64,000 bases of DNA from an uncultured Holophagaceae bacterium (GTDB taxonomy: Bacteria > Acidobacteriota > Holophagae > Holophagales > Holophagaceae). The position numbers and the translations under genes are program-made. The notes under the pieces are model-generated. The model made no database searches. It was given only the letters and a program-made list of their open reading frames with translations, and was not told the DNA's origin. Shown piece by piece: positions 56,344 through 64,000 of this stretch (position 1 is the first letter of the stretch; each line of letters opens with the position of its first letter). Location of the stretch: NCBI GenBank assembly GCA_903884655.1, contig CAISFO010000035.1, positions 1-64,000 of the forward strand, written 5' to 3'.

Positions 56344-57108
56344 TTAATCCGTCACCCGCCCGATCAGCCTCAACAAGCCATCCAGGATGGTGAGGGGATG
56401 GGGCGGGCAGCCTGGGATGTAGAGATCCACGGGCAGCACGCTGGCGGCCCCCCCGCGTTGCTCCTCCTGGCGAAAGAAGGGGCCGCCTTGGATGGCGCAG
56501 GCCCCGACGGCGATGACGATCTTCGGGTGGGGCACCGCATCGTAGGTCTTGCGAAGAGCCAGTTCCATGTTGCGGGTCACCGGCCCGGTGACGAGGAGAC
56601 CATCCGCATGGCGCGGCGAGGCCACGTACTGGATCCCGAACCGGCCCAGGTCCCAGGAGAGGGTGCCGAGCACGTTCACATCCACTTCGCAGCCATTGCA
56701 ACCCCCGGCGCTCACCACTCGCAGTTTCAGGGAGCGTCCCAGGATCCGCTGGAGCTCGGCTCCCATGGCCTGCGCCCGCCGGTAGTCCTCTCCCGGCGTG
56801 ACCGTCAGGGCCTCGCGTGAACAGGCAGCCAGACGGTGATCCTGGGTGTATTCGATGGCCCCTTCCGGGCAGGCTTCCAGGCAATCCGGACAGAAGAGGC
56901 ATCGGCCCAGGTCCACCTGGGGGCCCTTCGAACCGATCCGGATGGCTTCGGTGGGGCAGACCTCGGCGCAGACGTGGCACCCCTCGGGGCACTTGTCCGC
57001 CAGGATCCTGGGCAGCCCCCGGAAGCGCTCGGGCAGGCCGGGCACTTCCTTGGGATAGGGCAGGGTCCGATGACCCTGGCGCCAGCGGGACAGCAGGATG
57101 TGCATCAT
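56344..57108 (-). CDS. hydrogenase-like small subunit fused to a two-cluster ferredoxin domain
   Basis: A 254-residue cytoplasmic subunit. Residues about 36-85 form a 2x[4Fe-4S] ferredoxin (Cys40, 44, 47, 51 and Cys70, 73, 76, 80), equivalent to HycF/HyfH. Residues about 130-254 form the NuoB/HycG-type domain, with GCNGCEVDVN (Cys137, Cys140), GACAIQGG (Cys204) and IPGCPPHP (Cys234) that bind the proximal [4Fe-4S] cluster. The electron path is therefore intact although the partner large subunit lacks NiFe ligands. The ATG overlaps the large-subunit stop. It is the last gene of the cluster. Confidence 0.88.
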   Translation of the reverse strand: MMHILLSRWRQGHRTLPYPKEVPGLPERFRGLPRILADKCPEGCHVCAEVCPTEAIRIGSKGPQVDLGRCLFCPDCLEACPEGAIEYTQDHRLAACSREALTVTPGEDYRRAQAMGAELQRILGRSLKLRVVSAGGCNGCEVDVNVLGTLSWDLGRFGIQYVASPRHADGLLVTGPVTRNMELALRKTYDAVPHPKIVIAVGACAIQGGPFFRQEEQRGGAASVLPVDLYIPGCPPHPLTILDGLLRLIGRVTD

Positions 57109-58622
57109 AGGTCATGCCCGCAGTAGGAGAGGTTGAAGCTCTTGTTGCAGAGCGGGAAATCGGAGATCTGCTCGCCGCGCAGCGCCAGGGCCAGGCCGAA
57201 CCAGTTGTGGAAGGACGGATCCACGATCTTGTAGCGGGAGAACCGTCCCTGGCCATCCGTGAGGGCCAGGTGCAGCACCTCGCCCCGCCACCCTTCGGTC
57301 AGGGACACGCACAGGCTGTCTGTGGCCAGGGGCGGAAGCGGGCCGGCGGGCGGGTCCTGTTCACACCGGGAGAGGTCAGCCAGGGCCAGCGAGAGGTGCT
57401 TCTGGCTTTCGGCCAGTTCCAGCCAGCGCACCCAGGCCCGGGACTGGACGTTCCCGCTTTCCGCGAGGGAGGAGGGCACAGGTTGCTGCCGGTAGGGACC
57501 GTAGGGATGGTCCTTGCGGACATCGAGATCCACCCCGCAGGCCCGGGCGGGGACGCCGACCATGCCAAGCTCCCGGACCTGGGCTGCTGCGAGGTGACCT
57601 GCGGCTTCAAACCGGAGCATCACCGATGAGGCTCCCCACAGCAGGTCGATCGCATCCCGAGAGTCAGCCCAGGCCTGGTCCAGGCGGGGGAGCAGGCGCT
57701 GGGCCATCGCGGGATCCAGGTCATGGCGCAGGCCGCCGGGCTTCAGCCAGTCGCGGCCCAGGCGGCTGCCGCACACTTCTGCGCTGAGGTTCAGCCAGTC
57801 CCCCCGGATGCGGCCGCAGAAGGAAGCGGTGGGCAGGAAACCCGCATCTCCCGAAAGGGCTCCAAGATCCCCCACGTGGTTGGCCGCACGTTCCAGCTCC
57901 AGGGCCACGCCCCGCACCCGATCCGTCCTGGTCGGCACCTCCACGCCAGCCAGGGATTCCACCAGCCTGCAATAGGCCCAGGCATGGGCGATGCTGCTGT
58001 CTCCCGAGACCGTCTCGGATTGTTTGAGACTCAAGGCATGGGGACCTCCCTGCAGGGCCCTTTCGAGGCCCCGGTGCTGGAATCCCAGGGCGACTTCAAG
58101 GTGGAAGACCGTCTCCCCGTGACACTGGAACCGGAAGTGCCCGGGTTCGATGACCCCTGCATGCACCGGTCCCACGGCGACTTCATGCACTTCGTCGCCA
58201 CTCACCTGGAAGAAGTTCGTGACGCCAGGCGGGGAATCCACCTGCCGACCCCAGGGACTGGGCTGATCCGACCAAGGCTGATGGAAGCGGACGGGCTTGA
58301 ACCAGGGATGGCCCTCAGGAATGATCCCGTACTGCTCAGCTATTTCTCGTTCAAAGAGATGGGCCTGCGGGCAGTACGGCGTCAGGGAGGGATATCTCGA
58401 ACCGTCCAGCCGCGTCCTGGCGACCCGCAAGCGCTGCTCCGCATCCTCGGCCAGCACCGCGAAGAGTCGCAGGTCCCCGTCCGCGCAGAGACAGGCGAGT
58501 CGGGCCCCGGATCGGGCGCCCTCGAGGATGGCCTCCTGGAAGGCGGGCAGGGACAGCTCCGGGACCTCGGCCAAGGGGAGCGATTCTCCATTCCGGATGA
58601 TCCGCATGGACTTGTTATTCAT
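57105..58622 (-). CDS. NuoC/NuoD-type (hydrogenase large-subunit-like) protein lacking NiFe ligands
   Basis: A 505-residue fusion. Residues 1 to about 115 resemble NuoC (PYCPQAHLFEREIAEQYGI). The rest is the NuoD/HycE-type large subunit, with VHEVAVGPVHAGVIEPGHFRF fully conserved. In NiFe enzymes this is followed by an RxCGxC motif; here the segment reads ETVSGDSSIAHAWAYC (Ser206-Ser209), so both Cys are Ser. The C-terminal CxxC pair is also missing; only Cys492 and Cys501 are present in FPLCNKSFNLSYCGHDL. The protein should therefore lack a NiFe centre, as in Ehr complexes. The ATG at 58622 overlaps the HyfF-like stop by 8 bases. Confidence 0.87.
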   Translation of the reverse strand: MNNKSMRIIRNGESLPLAEVPELSLPAFQEAILEGARSGARLACLCADGDLRLFAVLAEDAEQRLRVARTRLDGSRYPSLTPYCPQAHLFEREIAEQYGIIPEGHPWFKPVRFHQPWSDQPSPWGRQVDSPPGVTNFFQVSGDEVHEVAVGPVHAGVIEPGHFRFQCHGETVFHLEVALGFQHRGLERALQGGPHALSLKQSETVSGDSSIAHAWAYCRLVESLAGVEVPTRTDRVRGVALELERAANHVGDLGALSGDAGFLPTASFCGRIRGDWLNLSAEVCGSRLGRDWLKPGGLRHDLDPAMAQRLLPRLDQAWADSRDAIDLLWGASSVMLRFEAAGHLAAAQVRELGMVGVPARACGVDLDVRKDHPYGPYRQQPVPSSLAESGNVQSRAWVRWLELAESQKHLSLALADLSRCEQDPPAGPLPPLATDSLCVSLTEGWRGEVLHLALTDGQGRFSRYKIVDPSFHNWFGLALALRGEQISDFPLCNKSFNLSYCGHDL

Positions 58623-60096
58623 GTTGGACCTCGACCGGGGGAACCAGGTGAACCTGACGCGGGTGGGCCTTGCCATCCACGGTGGCGACCGCATGCTCCA
58701 GCAGGGTCTGCATGGGCTTCGGCAGCCACACGCCCAGGAGCCCTGCCAGACAGAGCGCCACAATCAAGGGGGCGGTGGTGGCCACGGTATCCGAATAGTG
58801 CGTTCTCACCCGCTGGTGACTGGGCGTGCCGAACACCACCTTGAGCACGGTTTCACTCATGGCGATGAAGATGCCCGCCAGCAGCACCAGGAATGTGGTC
58901 CCCGCCCAGGCATGACCAGTGGTGAAGGCCCCGGCGGCGATGTTGAACTCGCTGATGAAGGGAGCGAAGGGCGGCAGACCGGTGATGGCCAGGAAGCCGA
59001 TGAGGAAGAGCCATCCCGAGACGGGGGTGCGTCGGATCGCCCCCGTCACGTGGGGAAGGGTCTTGCTGGCATAGCTTCGATGGATGTTGCCCGCGGAAAG
59101 GAAGAGAACGCTCTTCACCAGCGCGTTGGCCGCCAGGTGAAAGAGGGCGAACCGCGCCGCCATGCCTCCGATCCCGATGCCAAAGACCAGGATGCCCATG
59201 TGCTCCACGCTGGAATAGGCAAGCATCCGCTTGAAATCCATCTGACGGACCATGAACACCATGGCCCAGGCCATGGAGAACACGCCAAAGCCCACGAGCA
59301 ACTCCTGGGCGAACTTGCCCTCCCCGGCTGCCACCACGATGCCGTAGATCCGAAGCAGGGCCAGGAAAGCGCAGCTGGTGACGCCACCCGCCAGCAAGGC
59401 GCCGACGATGCCCGGTGTTTCCCCGTAGGCATCGGGCTTCCAGGTATGCAGCGGTGCCAAACCCATCTTGGTGCCGTACCCGACCAGGCTGAGCACGAAG
59501 GCAGCCCGCAGCCAGGGCCGGGAAAGCAGGTCCGCGTTCAGCATCAACCGGGTGTACTGGAGCGGCTCCTCCAGGCCCCCGAAATGGGCAGCATAAGCCA
59601 GGAAGAGGGTGCCGAGCAGGGCCAGGGCAATGCCCACGGACCCGATGAGCAGGTACTTCCAGGTGGCCTCGAGCGAGCGGCGGTTGCGGTTGAAGTAGAT
59701 CAGGGGGGCGGTCACCAGTGTGGTGGTTTCCATGGCCACCCAGGCGACACCGGGATGCCGCGCCTGGGCGAGCAGCGAAGCCAGCCCCAGAAACGACAGC
59801 AGACTGACACAGAAGATCCGGTTGTCCCGGTCCGCCCGCAGGGCGAGATAGGACGGGGCGTAGAAGGCGCAAATGCAGAACAGCACACTGACGACCAGCA
59901 GCACCCAGGCGCCCAAGGCATCGAGCCCCAGCCAGGCATTGATCGGCAGGGTTCCCCAATGGCGCAGCGCCACCAGGAGCACCGCGAGGTGCAAGGTGCC
60001 TGCGACTGGCAGCAACCGGGATCGAAGGTCCGGAGAGGCCACCAGGTAGGCTGCCATGGCCACCAGCAGGGGGAACAGGATCAGGAAATAGGCCAT
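58615..60096 (-). CDS. HyfF-like proton-channel (NuoN/NuoM-type) subunit
   Basis: A 493-residue membrane protein with about fourteen helices, of the Mrp/NuoN-type antiporter-like family. The VAWVAMETTTLVTAPLIYFNRN block, the pore-lining YGTKMGLAPLHTWKPDAYGETP with a conserved Lys, and FMVRQMDFKRMLAYSSVEHMG with a Lys are the charged positions expected for ion translocation. It lies between HyfE-like and large-subunit genes. It overlaps the large-subunit gene by 8 bases and starts 3 bases after the HyfE-like stop. Confidence 0.9.
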   Translation of the reverse strand: MAYFLILFPLLVAMAAYLVASPDLRSRLLPVAGTLHLAVLLVALRHWGTLPINAWLGLDALGAWVLLVVSVLFCICAFYAPSYLALRADRDNRIFCVSLLSFLGLASLLAQARHPGVAWVAMETTTLVTAPLIYFNRNRRSLEATWKYLLIGSVGIALALLGTLFLAYAAHFGGLEEPLQYTRLMLNADLLSRPWLRAAFVLSLVGYGTKMGLAPLHTWKPDAYGETPGIVGALLAGGVTSCAFLALLRIYGIVVAAGEGKFAQELLVGFGVFSMAWAMVFMVRQMDFKRMLAYSSVEHMGILVFGIGIGGMAARFALFHLAANALVKSVLFLSAGNIHRSYASKTLPHVTGAIRRTPVSGWLFLIGFLAITGLPPFAPFISEFNIAAGAFTTGHAWAGTTFLVLLAGIFIAMSETVLKVVFGTPSHQRVRTHYSDTVATTAPLIVALCLAGLLGVWLPKPMQTLLEHAVATVDGKAHPRQVHLVPPVEVQHE

Positions 60097-60099
60097 GAG

Positions 60100-60735
60100 T
60101 CAGTCCTTCAACTCGGCCAGGTGCCGGGTGTCGGTGGAATCGAAAGCATTCCGGATGTGATTGATCACGATGCCCATCACGAACACTCCGACGAACAGGT
60201 CCAGCAGGATCCCAGTCTCCACGAGCAGGGGCATCTCCTCCACGAGCAGCAGGCCGAAGAGGTAGATGCCGTTCTCCAGGACGAGGTAGCCCACCACCTG
60301 GGTGAGGGCCTTCCGCCGGGAGACCAGCACGAGGAATCCCGTGAAGAGCGTCGCGAGCGCGGCAGGCACCAGCAGCACCACCGGCGTCCCCGCCTTGAGA
60401 GGGAGCATGTGGGCCAGGATCAGGCTCAGGCCGGTGCCCAGCGCGCACAGCATGAGGGAGACCGTGTAGCCGATGTAGGGATCCACTTCCCGCTGGATGT
60501 GCACCTCCCGGATCGCCCGGCGAAGGAGGAACGGGATGAGCCAGCCCTTCACCACGAGGGCCGCTAGGACCACCAGGAGGATGTGGAAGTATTTCCCCAG
60601 TCCCATCGCCAGTGGAATCAGCCCCAGCAGGACTCCCTGGACCACGACAATCTGGATGGCCTTGTTCACGCGGCTGGTGGCCACCAGCATGAAGTTGCTG
60701 ATGAGGGTCAAAGCAATGAGGAAATCCGGCGACAT
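60100..60735 (-). CDS. HyfE-like membrane subunit
   Basis: A 211-residue membrane protein with about seven helices, in the NuoK-related HyfE family of hydrogenase-4-type complexes. The GWLIPFLLRRAIREVHIQREVDPYIGY block and the ENGIYLFGLLLVEEMPLLVETGILLDLFVGVFVMGIVI block, with its buried glutamates, are typical. It probably works with the HyfF-like channel in ion pumping. It sits 9 bases after the NuoH-type gene. Confidence 0.87.
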   Translation of the reverse strand: MSPDFLIALTLISNFMLVATSRVNKAIQIVVVQGVLLGLIPLAMGLGKYFHILLVVLAALVVKGWLIPFLLRRAIREVHIQREVDPYIGYTVSLMLCALGTGLSLILAHMLPLKAGTPVVLLVPAALATLFTGFLVLVSRRKALTQVVGYLVLENGIYLFGLLLVEEMPLLVETGILLDLFVGVFVMGIVINHIRNAFDSTDTRHLAELKD

Positions 60736-60744
60736 GAGAACCCC

Positions 60745-61671
60745 CTAGACCAGCAGCAGCAGAAAGGCGAAGGCCGAGGCCAGAATTCCAGCGATCAGGA
60801 ACTGAGGGACCTTGGTCATCCTGAACCGCGCAGTCATGCTCTCCACCGCACCCACCGCCAGGGCGAGGACACCCAGCCCCGCGTAGAAGACGAGCCAGTT
60901 CTGCCAGGCATGCGTCGTGCGCGGGAGCAGCGGATCCATGAGCATGGCGCCAAGCACCAGAAGCTTGAGGCTCGCGCCATACAGCACCAGCGCGAGCGGC
61001 CGGCCGGAGTGATCGAGCACCATGACTTCATGGATCATGGTGAGTTCCAGGTGGGTGTTGGGATCGTCCACGGGAATGCGGGCGTTCTCCGCCAGGAACA
61101 CGATGGCCCAGCCCACGAGCACCAGGATCAGAGGCCCGGCAATGCGCCCTGATCCCACTCCGGGGCCCAGGAGCATGGTGGACAGGGAGAGGCTGGAGGA
61201 GGCCTTGGCCAGGGCCGCGAACCCCAGGAACAGGGCAGGTTCAGCCAGGGCCGAGAAGGTGACTTCCCGGGCCGCGCCCATGCCTTCGAAGCTCGACCCG
61301 GTGTCGAGGGCGGACAGGACGGTGAGGAACCGCGCCAGCCCGAACAGGTAGGCGAACAGGATCACGTCCCCTTCGAAGGGTAGCGGCGTGCCGGTATGCC
61401 CGAACGGCACGAGCAGACCCGCCACCAGGCCGGCGGCGACGGTGCCGATGGGACCCGCCAGGAACACCCAGGTGGTCGTCCGGCTGAAGAGCGCCCGCTT
61501 GTGGGACAGCTTGGCCAGATCGTAATAGAGCTGCAGGACGGGCGGACCACTCCGCCCCGCCAGGAGGGCCTTCACCTTGTTGATGAGCCCAGGCAGCAGG
61601 GGGGGGAGCAGCAGGAGCGTCAGCAGGTGGACGGCCCATTGGATTGACGTGGGAATCAGCGACTGGGACAT
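60745..61671 (-). CDS. NuoH/HycD-type membrane subunit
   Basis: A 308-residue membrane protein with about eight helices, equivalent to NuoH, HycD and HyfC. Family blocks are the GPPVLQLYYDLAKLSHK segment, FGLARFLTVLSALDTGSSFEGMGAARE, and ENARIPVDDPNTHLELTMIHEVM, which forms the quinone-chamber-like loop in complex I. It connects the peripheral large and small subunits to the antiporter-like subunits. It follows the HyfB-like gene with a one-base gap. Confidence 0.92.
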   Translation of the reverse strand: MSQSLIPTSIQWAVHLLTLLLLPPLLPGLINKVKALLAGRSGPPVLQLYYDLAKLSHKRALFSRTTTWVFLAGPIGTVAAGLVAGLLVPFGHTGTPLPFEGDVILFAYLFGLARFLTVLSALDTGSSFEGMGAAREVTFSALAEPALFLGFAALAKASSSLSLSTMLLGPGVGSGRIAGPLILVLVGWAIVFLAENARIPVDDPNTHLELTMIHEVMVLDHSGRPLALVLYGASLKLLVLGAMLMDPLLPRTTHAWQNWLVFYAGLGVLALAVGAVESMTARFRMTKVPQFLIAGILASAFAFLLLLV

Positions 61672-61672
61672 C

Positions 61673-63613
61673 TCAGGCCACCATCCAGAGCAGGAGCGCG
61701 AGCAGGGTCAACAGGACATAGAGCAGGTAGAGGTGGACCTGGCCCCCCTGGAAAAACCTCAGGAAAGCGGCGCCTGTCGCAACCACCCGGAACACGGGAT
61801 CGGCGATGCGCTCCAGGACGGGGTCCGGCACATGGCTGCCGTAGGCCTGAGTCGAAGGAAAGGTTCCCGCCACCTCGCCGCCGGAGGACCTGGGCCAGAG
61901 CAGCCAGCGCATGCCCCCGACCAGACCATCCGCAAAGGAAGAGGCGCTGTACTGCATGCGGGGGTTCGCTGCGGCATAGCCACAATCCCAGGTGGGGAGC
62001 GGGCCCCCAGGTGCCGCCGGTCGCAACCAACGCCACAGCAACCAGGCCGAACCCAGCAGCAGGAAAGCGAGGATGCTGAGGCTGGGCAGACTGCTGAGCA
62101 GGGACAGGGGCGGAAGGTCCGTACTCGCTCCCAGGGAGCCCACAACCCGATCCAGGGCTGGCGCAATCAGCATGGGCGCCAGACCAATGACCGCGCAGGA
62201 GGTGGCCAGGATACCCATGGGGATGAGCATGCTGCGGGGCGCTTCGTGGGCCGCCTCGGCTGCCCGGGTGCGGGGCGTCCCCTGGAAGACCGCACCATAG
62301 GCCTTGGCGAAGCAGGCCAGGGCCAGGGCGCCGATGATGGCCAGGGCCGTCAGGACAACCAGGGACCAGGGCCACGGGTAGAACCCCAGGGCCCGGAAGG
62401 ACCCGACATAGAGGAACCATTCGCTCACGAACCCGTTGAGCGGGGGCAGACCACAGATGGCCCAGGATCCCGCCAGGAAGGCCGCCGAGGTCCAGGGCAT
62501 TCGCTGTCCCAGACCCCCCATCTGCTCGAGGTTCCTTGTCCCCAGGGCATGGACCACAGAACCCGCCGACAGGAACAGCAGGCCCTTGAAAAGGCTGTGG
62601 TTGACGACATGCAGCAGGGCACCGGCGAAGCCGAGCACCTGGATCACGGGATGCCCCGTGCTCTTCCCGATGGTGCCCAGCCCCAGGCCCAGCAGGATGA
62701 TGCCGATGTTCTCGATGGAGTGGTAGGCCAGCAGGCGCTTGAGGTCGTGCTGGCCGAGGGCGAAGGCCACACCCAGGATCCCTGACAACGCACCGAGCAC
62801 CATGAGGGTCGCGCCCCACCAGAAAGGTGGATCCGGGATCCAGGACAGCAGGCGCACCAGTCCCAGGATCCCCATCTTGATGAGCACCCCGGACATCACG
62901 GAGGAGACATGGCTGGGCGCGGCCGCATGGGTCGAAGGAAGCCAGAGGTGAAGCGGCATGACACCGGCTTTCAATCCGAATCCGAACAGACAGAGCCAGA
63001 AGAGGGCGGTGCCCTGGCTGGTGCCCGCGAAGGCCCTGGGAAGGGTCGAGAAGGCCCAGTGGCCCGAAACCGAGGCGAGGATGGCGAAGGCGCCGAACAG
63101 AGCCAGGGTTCCGGTGTGGGTGCACACCAGGTAGATCCAGCCGGCGCGTTGGACCTCAGGCAAACGATCCTCCGTCATCACCAGGAGGAAGGCCGCGATG
63201 GCCATCCCTTCCCAGCCCAGGAGGAAGGGCAGCGCATGGGTGGAGACCACCAGCAAGGCCAGGAAGGCCGCCAGCAATCCGAGCACCAGCCTCAGCCTTC
63301 GGGCATTCTCCTGATGATCGTCCCAGTAGCCGATGCCATAGATCGCCGCGCAGGCGGGCAGCAGGAACACGGGCAGCGAGAACAAGGCCGCGATGGGATC
63401 GAGGGTGAGCAGGCCGGCCGAAGCCAAGGGCGCGGGGGGCAGCGTCAGGACGGCCACTGGGCCGCCCGCCAGCACCCGGACCGCTGCGGCCATTCCGAGC
63501 AAGGCTCCCAGACCCATCAAGACAGCGGCCACCTCCCCGCCCCAGCGCCTCAGGAATACCCCAGGCAACCCTGAGATCAGCACGAACACCATGGCAAGGA
63601 GGTAGAGCCTCAT
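61673..63613 (-). CDS. HyfB/NuoL-type proton-channel subunit
   Basis: A 646-residue membrane protein with about fifteen or sixteen helices. The first part is NuoL/HyfB-like: GWEGMAIAAFLLV, GFGLKAGVMPLHLWLPSTHAAAPSHVSSVMSG, with the conserved Lys in LKAG, and DLKRLLAYHSIENIG. Late in the chain a TWDCGY block and a final GGQVHLYLLYVLLTLLALLLWM helix are shared with HyfB/HycC. I start at the ATG at 63613 (GGGAGG 9 bases upstream); the frame to 63982 runs in a different phase from its homologue. It overlaps the preceding partial gene (ATGA). Confidence 0.9.
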   Translation of the reverse strand: MRLYLLAMVFVLISGLPGVFLRRWGGEVAAVLMGLGALLGMAAAVRVLAGGPVAVLTLPPAPLASAGLLTLDPIAALFSLPVFLLPACAAIYGIGYWDDHQENARRLRLVLGLLAAFLALLVVSTHALPFLLGWEGMAIAAFLLVMTEDRLPEVQRAGWIYLVCTHTGTLALFGAFAILASVSGHWAFSTLPRAFAGTSQGTALFWLCLFGFGLKAGVMPLHLWLPSTHAAAPSHVSSVMSGVLIKMGILGLVRLLSWIPDPPFWWGATLMVLGALSGILGVAFALGQHDLKRLLAYHSIENIGIILLGLGLGTIGKSTGHPVIQVLGFAGALLHVVNHSLFKGLLFLSAGSVVHALGTRNLEQMGGLGQRMPWTSAAFLAGSWAICGLPPLNGFVSEWFLYVGSFRALGFYPWPWSLVVLTALAIIGALALACFAKAYGAVFQGTPRTRAAEAAHEAPRSMLIPMGILATSCAVIGLAPMLIAPALDRVVGSLGASTDLPPLSLLSSLPSLSILAFLLLGSAWLLWRWLRPAAPGGPLPTWDCGYAAANPRMQYSASSFADGLVGGMRWLLWPRSSGGEVAGTFPSTQAYGSHVPDPVLERIADPVFRVVATGAAFLRFFQGGQVHLYLLYVLLTLLALLLWMVA

Positions 63614-64000
63614 CCCAGCAGCCTCCCCCGCAAGAACATCCAGAGGAACGCTCCCAGCAGGGCCAACAGCACATAGAGGATATAGAGCGACAAGTAGCCG
63701 GGCTGGAGGCTCCGGAAGCGGAGCAAACGCTGAGCCATCCGCTCCAGCCTGGACCCAAGGAATAGCTCTCCGACCAGGTCCCGGATCTCGGAGCGGAAGG
63801 CGACCGGTTTGGGAAAGTTCGCTGTGATCCGACGGACCTTGTACTTGAGGCCCGGCAACAGCGGTGCCCAGGCCTCCGAAAAGGAGGAGCCGGTGTACTC
63901 GGCCCGACGGACCGGCAGCGCATAGCCACAATCCCAGGTTGGAGGTGACAAGGCTTCCGGCGAGGGCGTCGAGCGTCGCCACCAGAGGTACGCCGCGAAC
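63610..64000 (-). CDS. HyfB/NuoL-type subunit, C-terminal part (cut by window edge)
   Basis: An open frame continues from the right window edge (no stop to 64000) and ends at 63610. The visible 129 residues resemble the C-terminal tail of the next gene: a TWDCGY block, then a soluble stretch, then the final PGYLSLYILYVLLALLGAFLW helix. The rest of a NuoL-like channel protein must lie beyond the edge. It is a tandem paralogue of the 61673-63613 gene, so the complex has at least three antiporter-like subunits with the HyfF-like one. It is coupled to the next gene by ATGA. Confidence 0.82.
   Translation of the reverse strand, partial: FAAYLWWRRSTPSPEALSPPTWDCGYALPVRRAEYTGSSFSEAWAPLLPGLKYKVRRITANFPKPVAFRSEIRDLVGELFLGSRLERMAQRLLRFRSLQPGYLSLYILYVLLALLGAFLWMFLRGRLLG

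Follow-up and report, generated by a model that had tools for sequence, protein, structure and literature searches.

With a probability of roughly 0.75, the large subunit described here, encoded in a 64,000-nucleotide stretch of DNA from an uncultured Holophagaceae bacterium (the window), belongs to an Ehr (Ech-hydrogenase-related, or energy-converting hydrogenase-related) complex, a relative of complex I and formate hydrogenlyase that lost its [NiFe] centre in a distant ancestor and would work as an ion pump driven by redox chemistry, with its active site remodelled, rather than as a hydrogenase. The Ser-Gly-Asp-Ser (SGDS) that stands where hydrogenases carry the NiFe L1 CxxC motif is a genus-level variant of a family motif, x-G-D-[S/T]. 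Ehr complexes have been described from Geobacter sulfurreducens, Nitrospira and Margulisbacteria (PMC7894505, PMC6349859, PMC12342949, PMC10284858), and Ehr without the NiFe-binding cysteines, of unknown function, is known from several reports (PMC6349859, PMC12342949, PMC10284858). The loss of these cysteines is thus already in print; the invariant GD[S/T] motif and a sister lineage with intact cysteines were not found in the Ehr literature that we searched, which lay outside the primary Ehr papers.

The operon comprises seven genes, for two HyfB-like subunits, HyfC-, HyfE- and HyfF-like subunits, the large subunit and the small subunit (Table 1). The first HyfB gene crosses the edge of the window, and its remainder was taken from the contig. 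The named subunit kinds match those of the seven G. sulfurreducens Ehr genes; as in the named Ehr complexes, antiporter-like subunits stand beside large and small subunits that resemble group 4 but have no NiFe ligand cysteines. The present case differs from the named Ehr in its host, a Geothrix-like acidobacterium, and in the drift of residue 206 among Ala, Ser and Cys within the genus. The likeness to the seven-gene Ehr of G. sulfurreducens, GSU0739-45 (PMC7894505), and to Nitrospira EhrL rests on descriptions, while Desulfobacterota members of the clade were compared by sequence. Compared with E. coli formate hydrogenlyase, the Ehr operon has two HyfB-like subunits. The 12 small-subunit cluster cysteines, the E-channel Glu and the antiporter Glu/Lys are conserved among 43-57 homologues. 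An 860-aa open reading frame lies upstream of the operon (contig C35, 65701-68283, equal to L113 9702-12284); a 580-aa piece of it had no Pfam match.

Table 1. Positions of the Ehr operon, of its old active site and of a gene seen upstream of ehr operons at other loci
Feature	Position	Strand	Basis or remark
Small subunit: double [4Fe-4S] ferredoxin domain at the N-terminus, fused to a HycG/NuoB-like domain; 12 cluster Cys kept	56344..57108	-	
Large subunit, 505 aa, EhrL/HyfG-like, a fusion of a NuoC-like and a NuoD-like domain	57105..58622	-	Pfam, HycE match; ATG at 58622, stop at 57105
C-terminus P490-L505 (PLCNKSFNLSYCGHDL), NiFe L2 place, no C-terminal extension	57108..57155	-	alignment
SGDS, residues 206-209, NiFe L1 CxxC motif place (HycE C241/C244)	57996..58007	-	sequence, alignment
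Beta1-beta2 loop GPVHAGVIEPGHFRF (151-165) with invariant Glu159 (HycE Glu193)	58128..58172	-	
HyfF-like antiporter subunit	58615..60096	-	
HyfE-like membrane subunit	60100..60735	-	
HyfC/HycD/NuoH-like membrane anchor	60745..61671	-	
Second HyfB-like antiporter subunit	61673..63565	-	start codon approximate
First HyfB-like antiporter subunit, 3' end	63610..64000	-	gene continues to contig position 65622, beyond the window
HTH_17 + EIIA-2 gene, example	L080 1795-2490		
HTH_17 + EIIA-2 gene, example	L103 2133-2819		
HTH_17 + EIIA-2 gene, example	L070 2160-2837		

The large subunit is HycE/NuoCD-like and matches the Pfam families Complex1_30kDa and Complex1_49kDa; PF00374, the NiFe hydrogenase family, gave no match at the reporting limit. 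The same genome encodes a bona fide NiFe hydrogenase elsewhere (C38:23172-27229, beside hypD), which scores 799 bits with PF00374 and carries the motifs CGVC and DPCLACAVH. The best PDB match of the large subunit is HycE (7z0s_E), both by sequence (E 1e-40) and by fold (TM 0.82). With HycE (Hyd-3) and HyfG (Hyd-4) it shares the fused NuoC-like N-domain and the equivalents of Glu193 and Arg478 (Glu159 and Arg446, both invariant in close homologues). It departs from HycE, to which it is 25% identical, at every metal ligand: residues 206-209 align without gaps with C241-G242-I243-C244, while C531 and C534 of the L2 motif become S499 and G502 and D529 becomes N497, so that all four Ni/Fe ligand cysteines are absent (S206, S209, S499, G502).

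HycE is cleaved after R537 during maturation. The large subunit ends at the position aligned with this cleavage point and lacks the HycE-type C-terminal extension, the substrate of a HycI-type protease; such an extension is not universal in group 4, being absent also from two relatives with intact cysteines (L125 and L127, below). At 149-162 and 490-505 the structure model cannot be relied on (pLDDT below 50).

Complex I NuoCD/Nqo4 has the same fold and likewise no NiFe ligands, yet its quinone residues are not found here: NuoCD H224 aligns with I158 and Y273 with G207, so the equivalents of His38 and Tyr87 (Thermus thermophilus numbering) are missing, and Glu159 and Arg446 are of the hydrogenase type, where NuoCD has G225 and K537. 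HycE Glu193 is a proposed proton donor that sits where the complex I histidine is (PMC9474812). The proximal-cluster spacing, GGCNGC (CxxC), is the same in Ehr and HycG. Since Glu159 and Arg446 are retained and the cysteine ligands replaced, the site, as read from the alignment, retains hydrogenase-type surroundings but not the metal ligands.

The original prediction held that SGDS arose by two independent Cys to Ser changes, selected for a different ligand or a quinone-type pocket rather than left by random decay. Translation of the minus strand bears out the residues (codons TCG GGA GAC AGC) and both flanks quoted with them, GPVHAGVIEPGHFRF at 151-165 and, one Ser after SGDS, IAHAWAYC at 211-218. 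Their history is another matter. A contig scan found 80 loci with 50-80% identity to the large subunit, in Acidobacteriota, Desulfobacterota, Planctomycetota, Lentisphaerota, Verrucomicrobiota, Elusimicrobiota, Omnitrophota, Atribacterota, Bipolaricaulota and others, and a close copy is present in 18 of 25 genomes of the genus, the source genome counted. Motifs were counted in 84 non-redundant close homologues, 26 of them Holophagaceae-like and the others from more than 10 phyla. The consensus at L1 is AGDT (54 rows), followed by AGDS (7), SGDS, CGDS and SGDT (6 each), SGDA (4) and CGDT (1); the Holophagaceae-like rows hold AGDT (8), SGDS and CGDS (6 each), AGDS and SGDA (3 each). SGDS is therefore not conserved (6/84 overall, 6/26 among Holophagaceae-like rows), and the counts do not support it as a specific selected replacement; CGDS occurs in Geothrix fermentans and others.

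Gly207 and Asp208 are invariant (84/84), while position 206 is Ala, Ser or Cys and 209 is Thr, Ser or Ala, so the fixed residues are those between the two former ligands, and the former ligand positions themselves seem to need only a small residue. The serines thus occupy variable positions of [A/S/C]-G-D-[T/S/A], and the cysteine loss is ancient. The close homologues also share a nearly invariant C-terminal string, NKSFNLSYCGHDL.

That the subunit is not decaying at random, as had been supposed, is upheld by dN/dS, the measure proposed for it: pairwise Nei-Gojobori estimates, from pairs with dS <1.2, have a median of 0.26, which indicates purifying selection, as does the invariance of G207-D208. 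Along the subunit, pN/pS is 0.10 at 149-190 and 0.13 at 441-505, which makes the stretches of the beta1-beta2 loop and the C-terminus the most constrained, against 0.45-0.48 for the N-domain and 301-440. The L1 stretch (200-222, 0.32) is less constrained because residues 205, 206 and 209 drift.

A tree built without the motif columns, with Nuo as outgroup, places the loss. In it the large subunit groups with the group 4 enzymes and is separated from Nuo at 100/100. EhrA and a second Ehr group, EhrB, which has mostly SGD[ST] at L1 and NLSYSGNDL or NQSYSGHDL at L2, form a single clade (97/94). Adjoining it (98/94) are L125 and L127, a rare lineage from Acidobacteriota and the nearest cysteine-bearing Ehr relatives that we found; they have GPIHAGIIEPGHFRF and PDFPLVNKSF in common with Ehr and all four NiFe cysteines present (CGVC/CGAC and ELCYSCTDR/ELCYACTDR). 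A third cysteine-free group, CyslessC, with SGTS-type L1 and GLSxAExDR, lies outside (100/100), and beyond it come HycE and other group 4 enzymes, then Nuo. The simplest reading of these sequences would be one cysteine loss before the EhrA/EhrB split. Comparison of a single loss over EhrA, EhrB and CyslessC with two losses gave an AU p of 0.19. The tree thus sets the loss at the base of Ehr, not in the present lineage, and together with the motif counts it rules out recent selection for Cys to Ser. Five other cysteines of the large subunit (57108-58622), C167, C269, C284, C492 and C501, are almost invariant in EhrA and mostly missing in HycE, EhrB and L125.

What, then, might an Ehr complex do? 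In G. sulfurreducens proteomics found higher levels of all Ehr subunits on formate than with hydrogen, and the authors suggest a tie to H2 production from formate, which speaks against the reading proposed here (PMC7894505); Nitrospira Ehr expression shows no rise with H2 (PMC12342949). Because all four ligands are lost, H2 chemistry at the Ehr large subunit is unlikely. We propose that low-potential electrons, from ferredoxin or a formate-linked carrier, would be taken up by the small subunit at its ferredoxin domain and pass to the proximal cluster, there reducing a small acceptor in a remodelled cavity. The GD[S/T] loop would form this cavity together with the almost invariant C-terminus, near 206-209 and 497-505, and proton delivery via Glu159 and the E-channel would then drive the three antiporter-like subunits to pump ions. 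As a first guess, which we hold at somewhat under even odds, the acceptor may be a quinone bound otherwise than in complex I; the guess is weakened because the His38/Tyr87 equivalents are missing. Of the different ligand or quinone pocket originally suggested, the complex I-type pocket is accordingly weakened, the quinone His and Tyr aligning with I158 and G207; another ligand, or a quinone bound through other residues, may still be what the site takes.

It is tempting to go further, and to see in the G-D-[S/T] loop and C-terminal string a defined active site that has newly arisen on the dead [NiFe] site, with an acceptor that would be neither protons, a complex I-style quinone nor sulfane sulfur, with L125/L127 and Ehr as a before-and-after pair. 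We consider this doubtful as a whole; if true, the pair would serve for studying the conversion of a hydrogenase. Ehr complexes are widespread and close to complex I. With an old, conserved x-G-D-[S/T] and C-terminal string beside drifting ligand positions, their function is testable at Asp208 and the C-terminus, not at the serines, and a named close relative with all four cysteines intact helps to make it so.

Two other accounts of the site seem improbable to much the same degree. Perhaps the large subunit is a non-catalytic scaffold: the complex would then act chiefly as an ion antiporter or channel, with the old active site left as a structural remnant. The loss of four ligands and the tolerance of A/S/C at 206 and T/S/A at 209 fit such an account, as does the finding that neighbourhood clustering of ehr operons revealed no recurring redox or soluble partner gene that could be an electron donor. 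A scaffold, however, would need none of the 12 cluster cysteines, Glu159, Arg446, Gly207, Asp208 or the C-terminal string, and their retention across many phyla therefore argues against it. Or, perhaps another metal or cofactor is held at the old site by Asp208, Ser/Thr209, Cys492, Cys501 and His503 or by the EhrA-specific Cys167, 269 and 284. Asp208 is invariant, C167, C269 and C284 are invariant or nearly so, and C492 (83/84), C501 (82/84) and H503 (81/84) are close to it; yet EhrB lacks most of these cysteines and a deep EhrA row (L137) lacks some, and C501 is replaced by Ser or Ala and H503 by Phe in some homologues.

A little less probable still is a function like that of MBS, the sulfane sulfur reductase of Pyrococcus furiosus, in which the proximal [4Fe-4S] cluster would reduce sulfur or another small substrate in the emptied cavity. 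MBS, too, is a cysteine-poor group 4 descendant that lost the NiFe ligands and has no His38/Tyr87 equivalents (PMC7684303). It keeps two of the four cysteines, and its proximal-cluster loop is three residues shorter, with one cysteine non-binding and the proton-donor Glu (MbhL E21) missing (PMC7684303). In Ehr, by contrast, all four cysteines are gone, Glu159 is kept and invariant, and the GGCNGC cluster spacing is hydrogenase-like. Weakest by far, and next to impossible, is the account in which a working hydrogenase has undergone a local mutation or its sequence contains an error: cysteine in close relatives, named beforehand as the sign of it, does occur at 206 in six Holophagaceae relatives with CGDS (e.g. 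G. fermentans, L036) but at 209, or at S499/G502, in 0/84 homologues, and a sequencing error is rejected since the frame is open over 505 aa and SGDS recurs in separate Holophagaceae genomes.

Several further observations concern ehr operons and group 4 enzymes more widely. At about 21 non-Holophagaceae loci a gene that fuses HTH_17 and PTS EIIA-2 domains lies upstream of the ehr operon (examples in Table 1) and is likely an ehr regulator; it was not seen with Geothrix-like operons. Four group 4 large subunits, L168, L170, L172 and L174 (genomes G254, G294, G256 and G330), have in-frame TGA at L1 cysteine positions, giving ERI-U-G-I-U in the last three and ERI-U-G-I-C in L168, with L2 intact in the group (DPCFSCTER). 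The pattern suggests selenocysteine as one or both of the L1 ligands; in two of the four genomes SelB scored above the cut-off, the RNA hairpin after the TGA was not clearly better than shuffles, and one literature search found no paper on it. In plasmids, a relative is present in more than 100 records, of which many are from Rhizobium, Azospirillum and Cupriavidus, and a plasmid of Variovorax sp. PBL-E5 (L191, NZ_LR594673.1) carries two tandem Ehr/Hyf-like operons; a copy on a Variovorax plasmid reads VGDS at L1.
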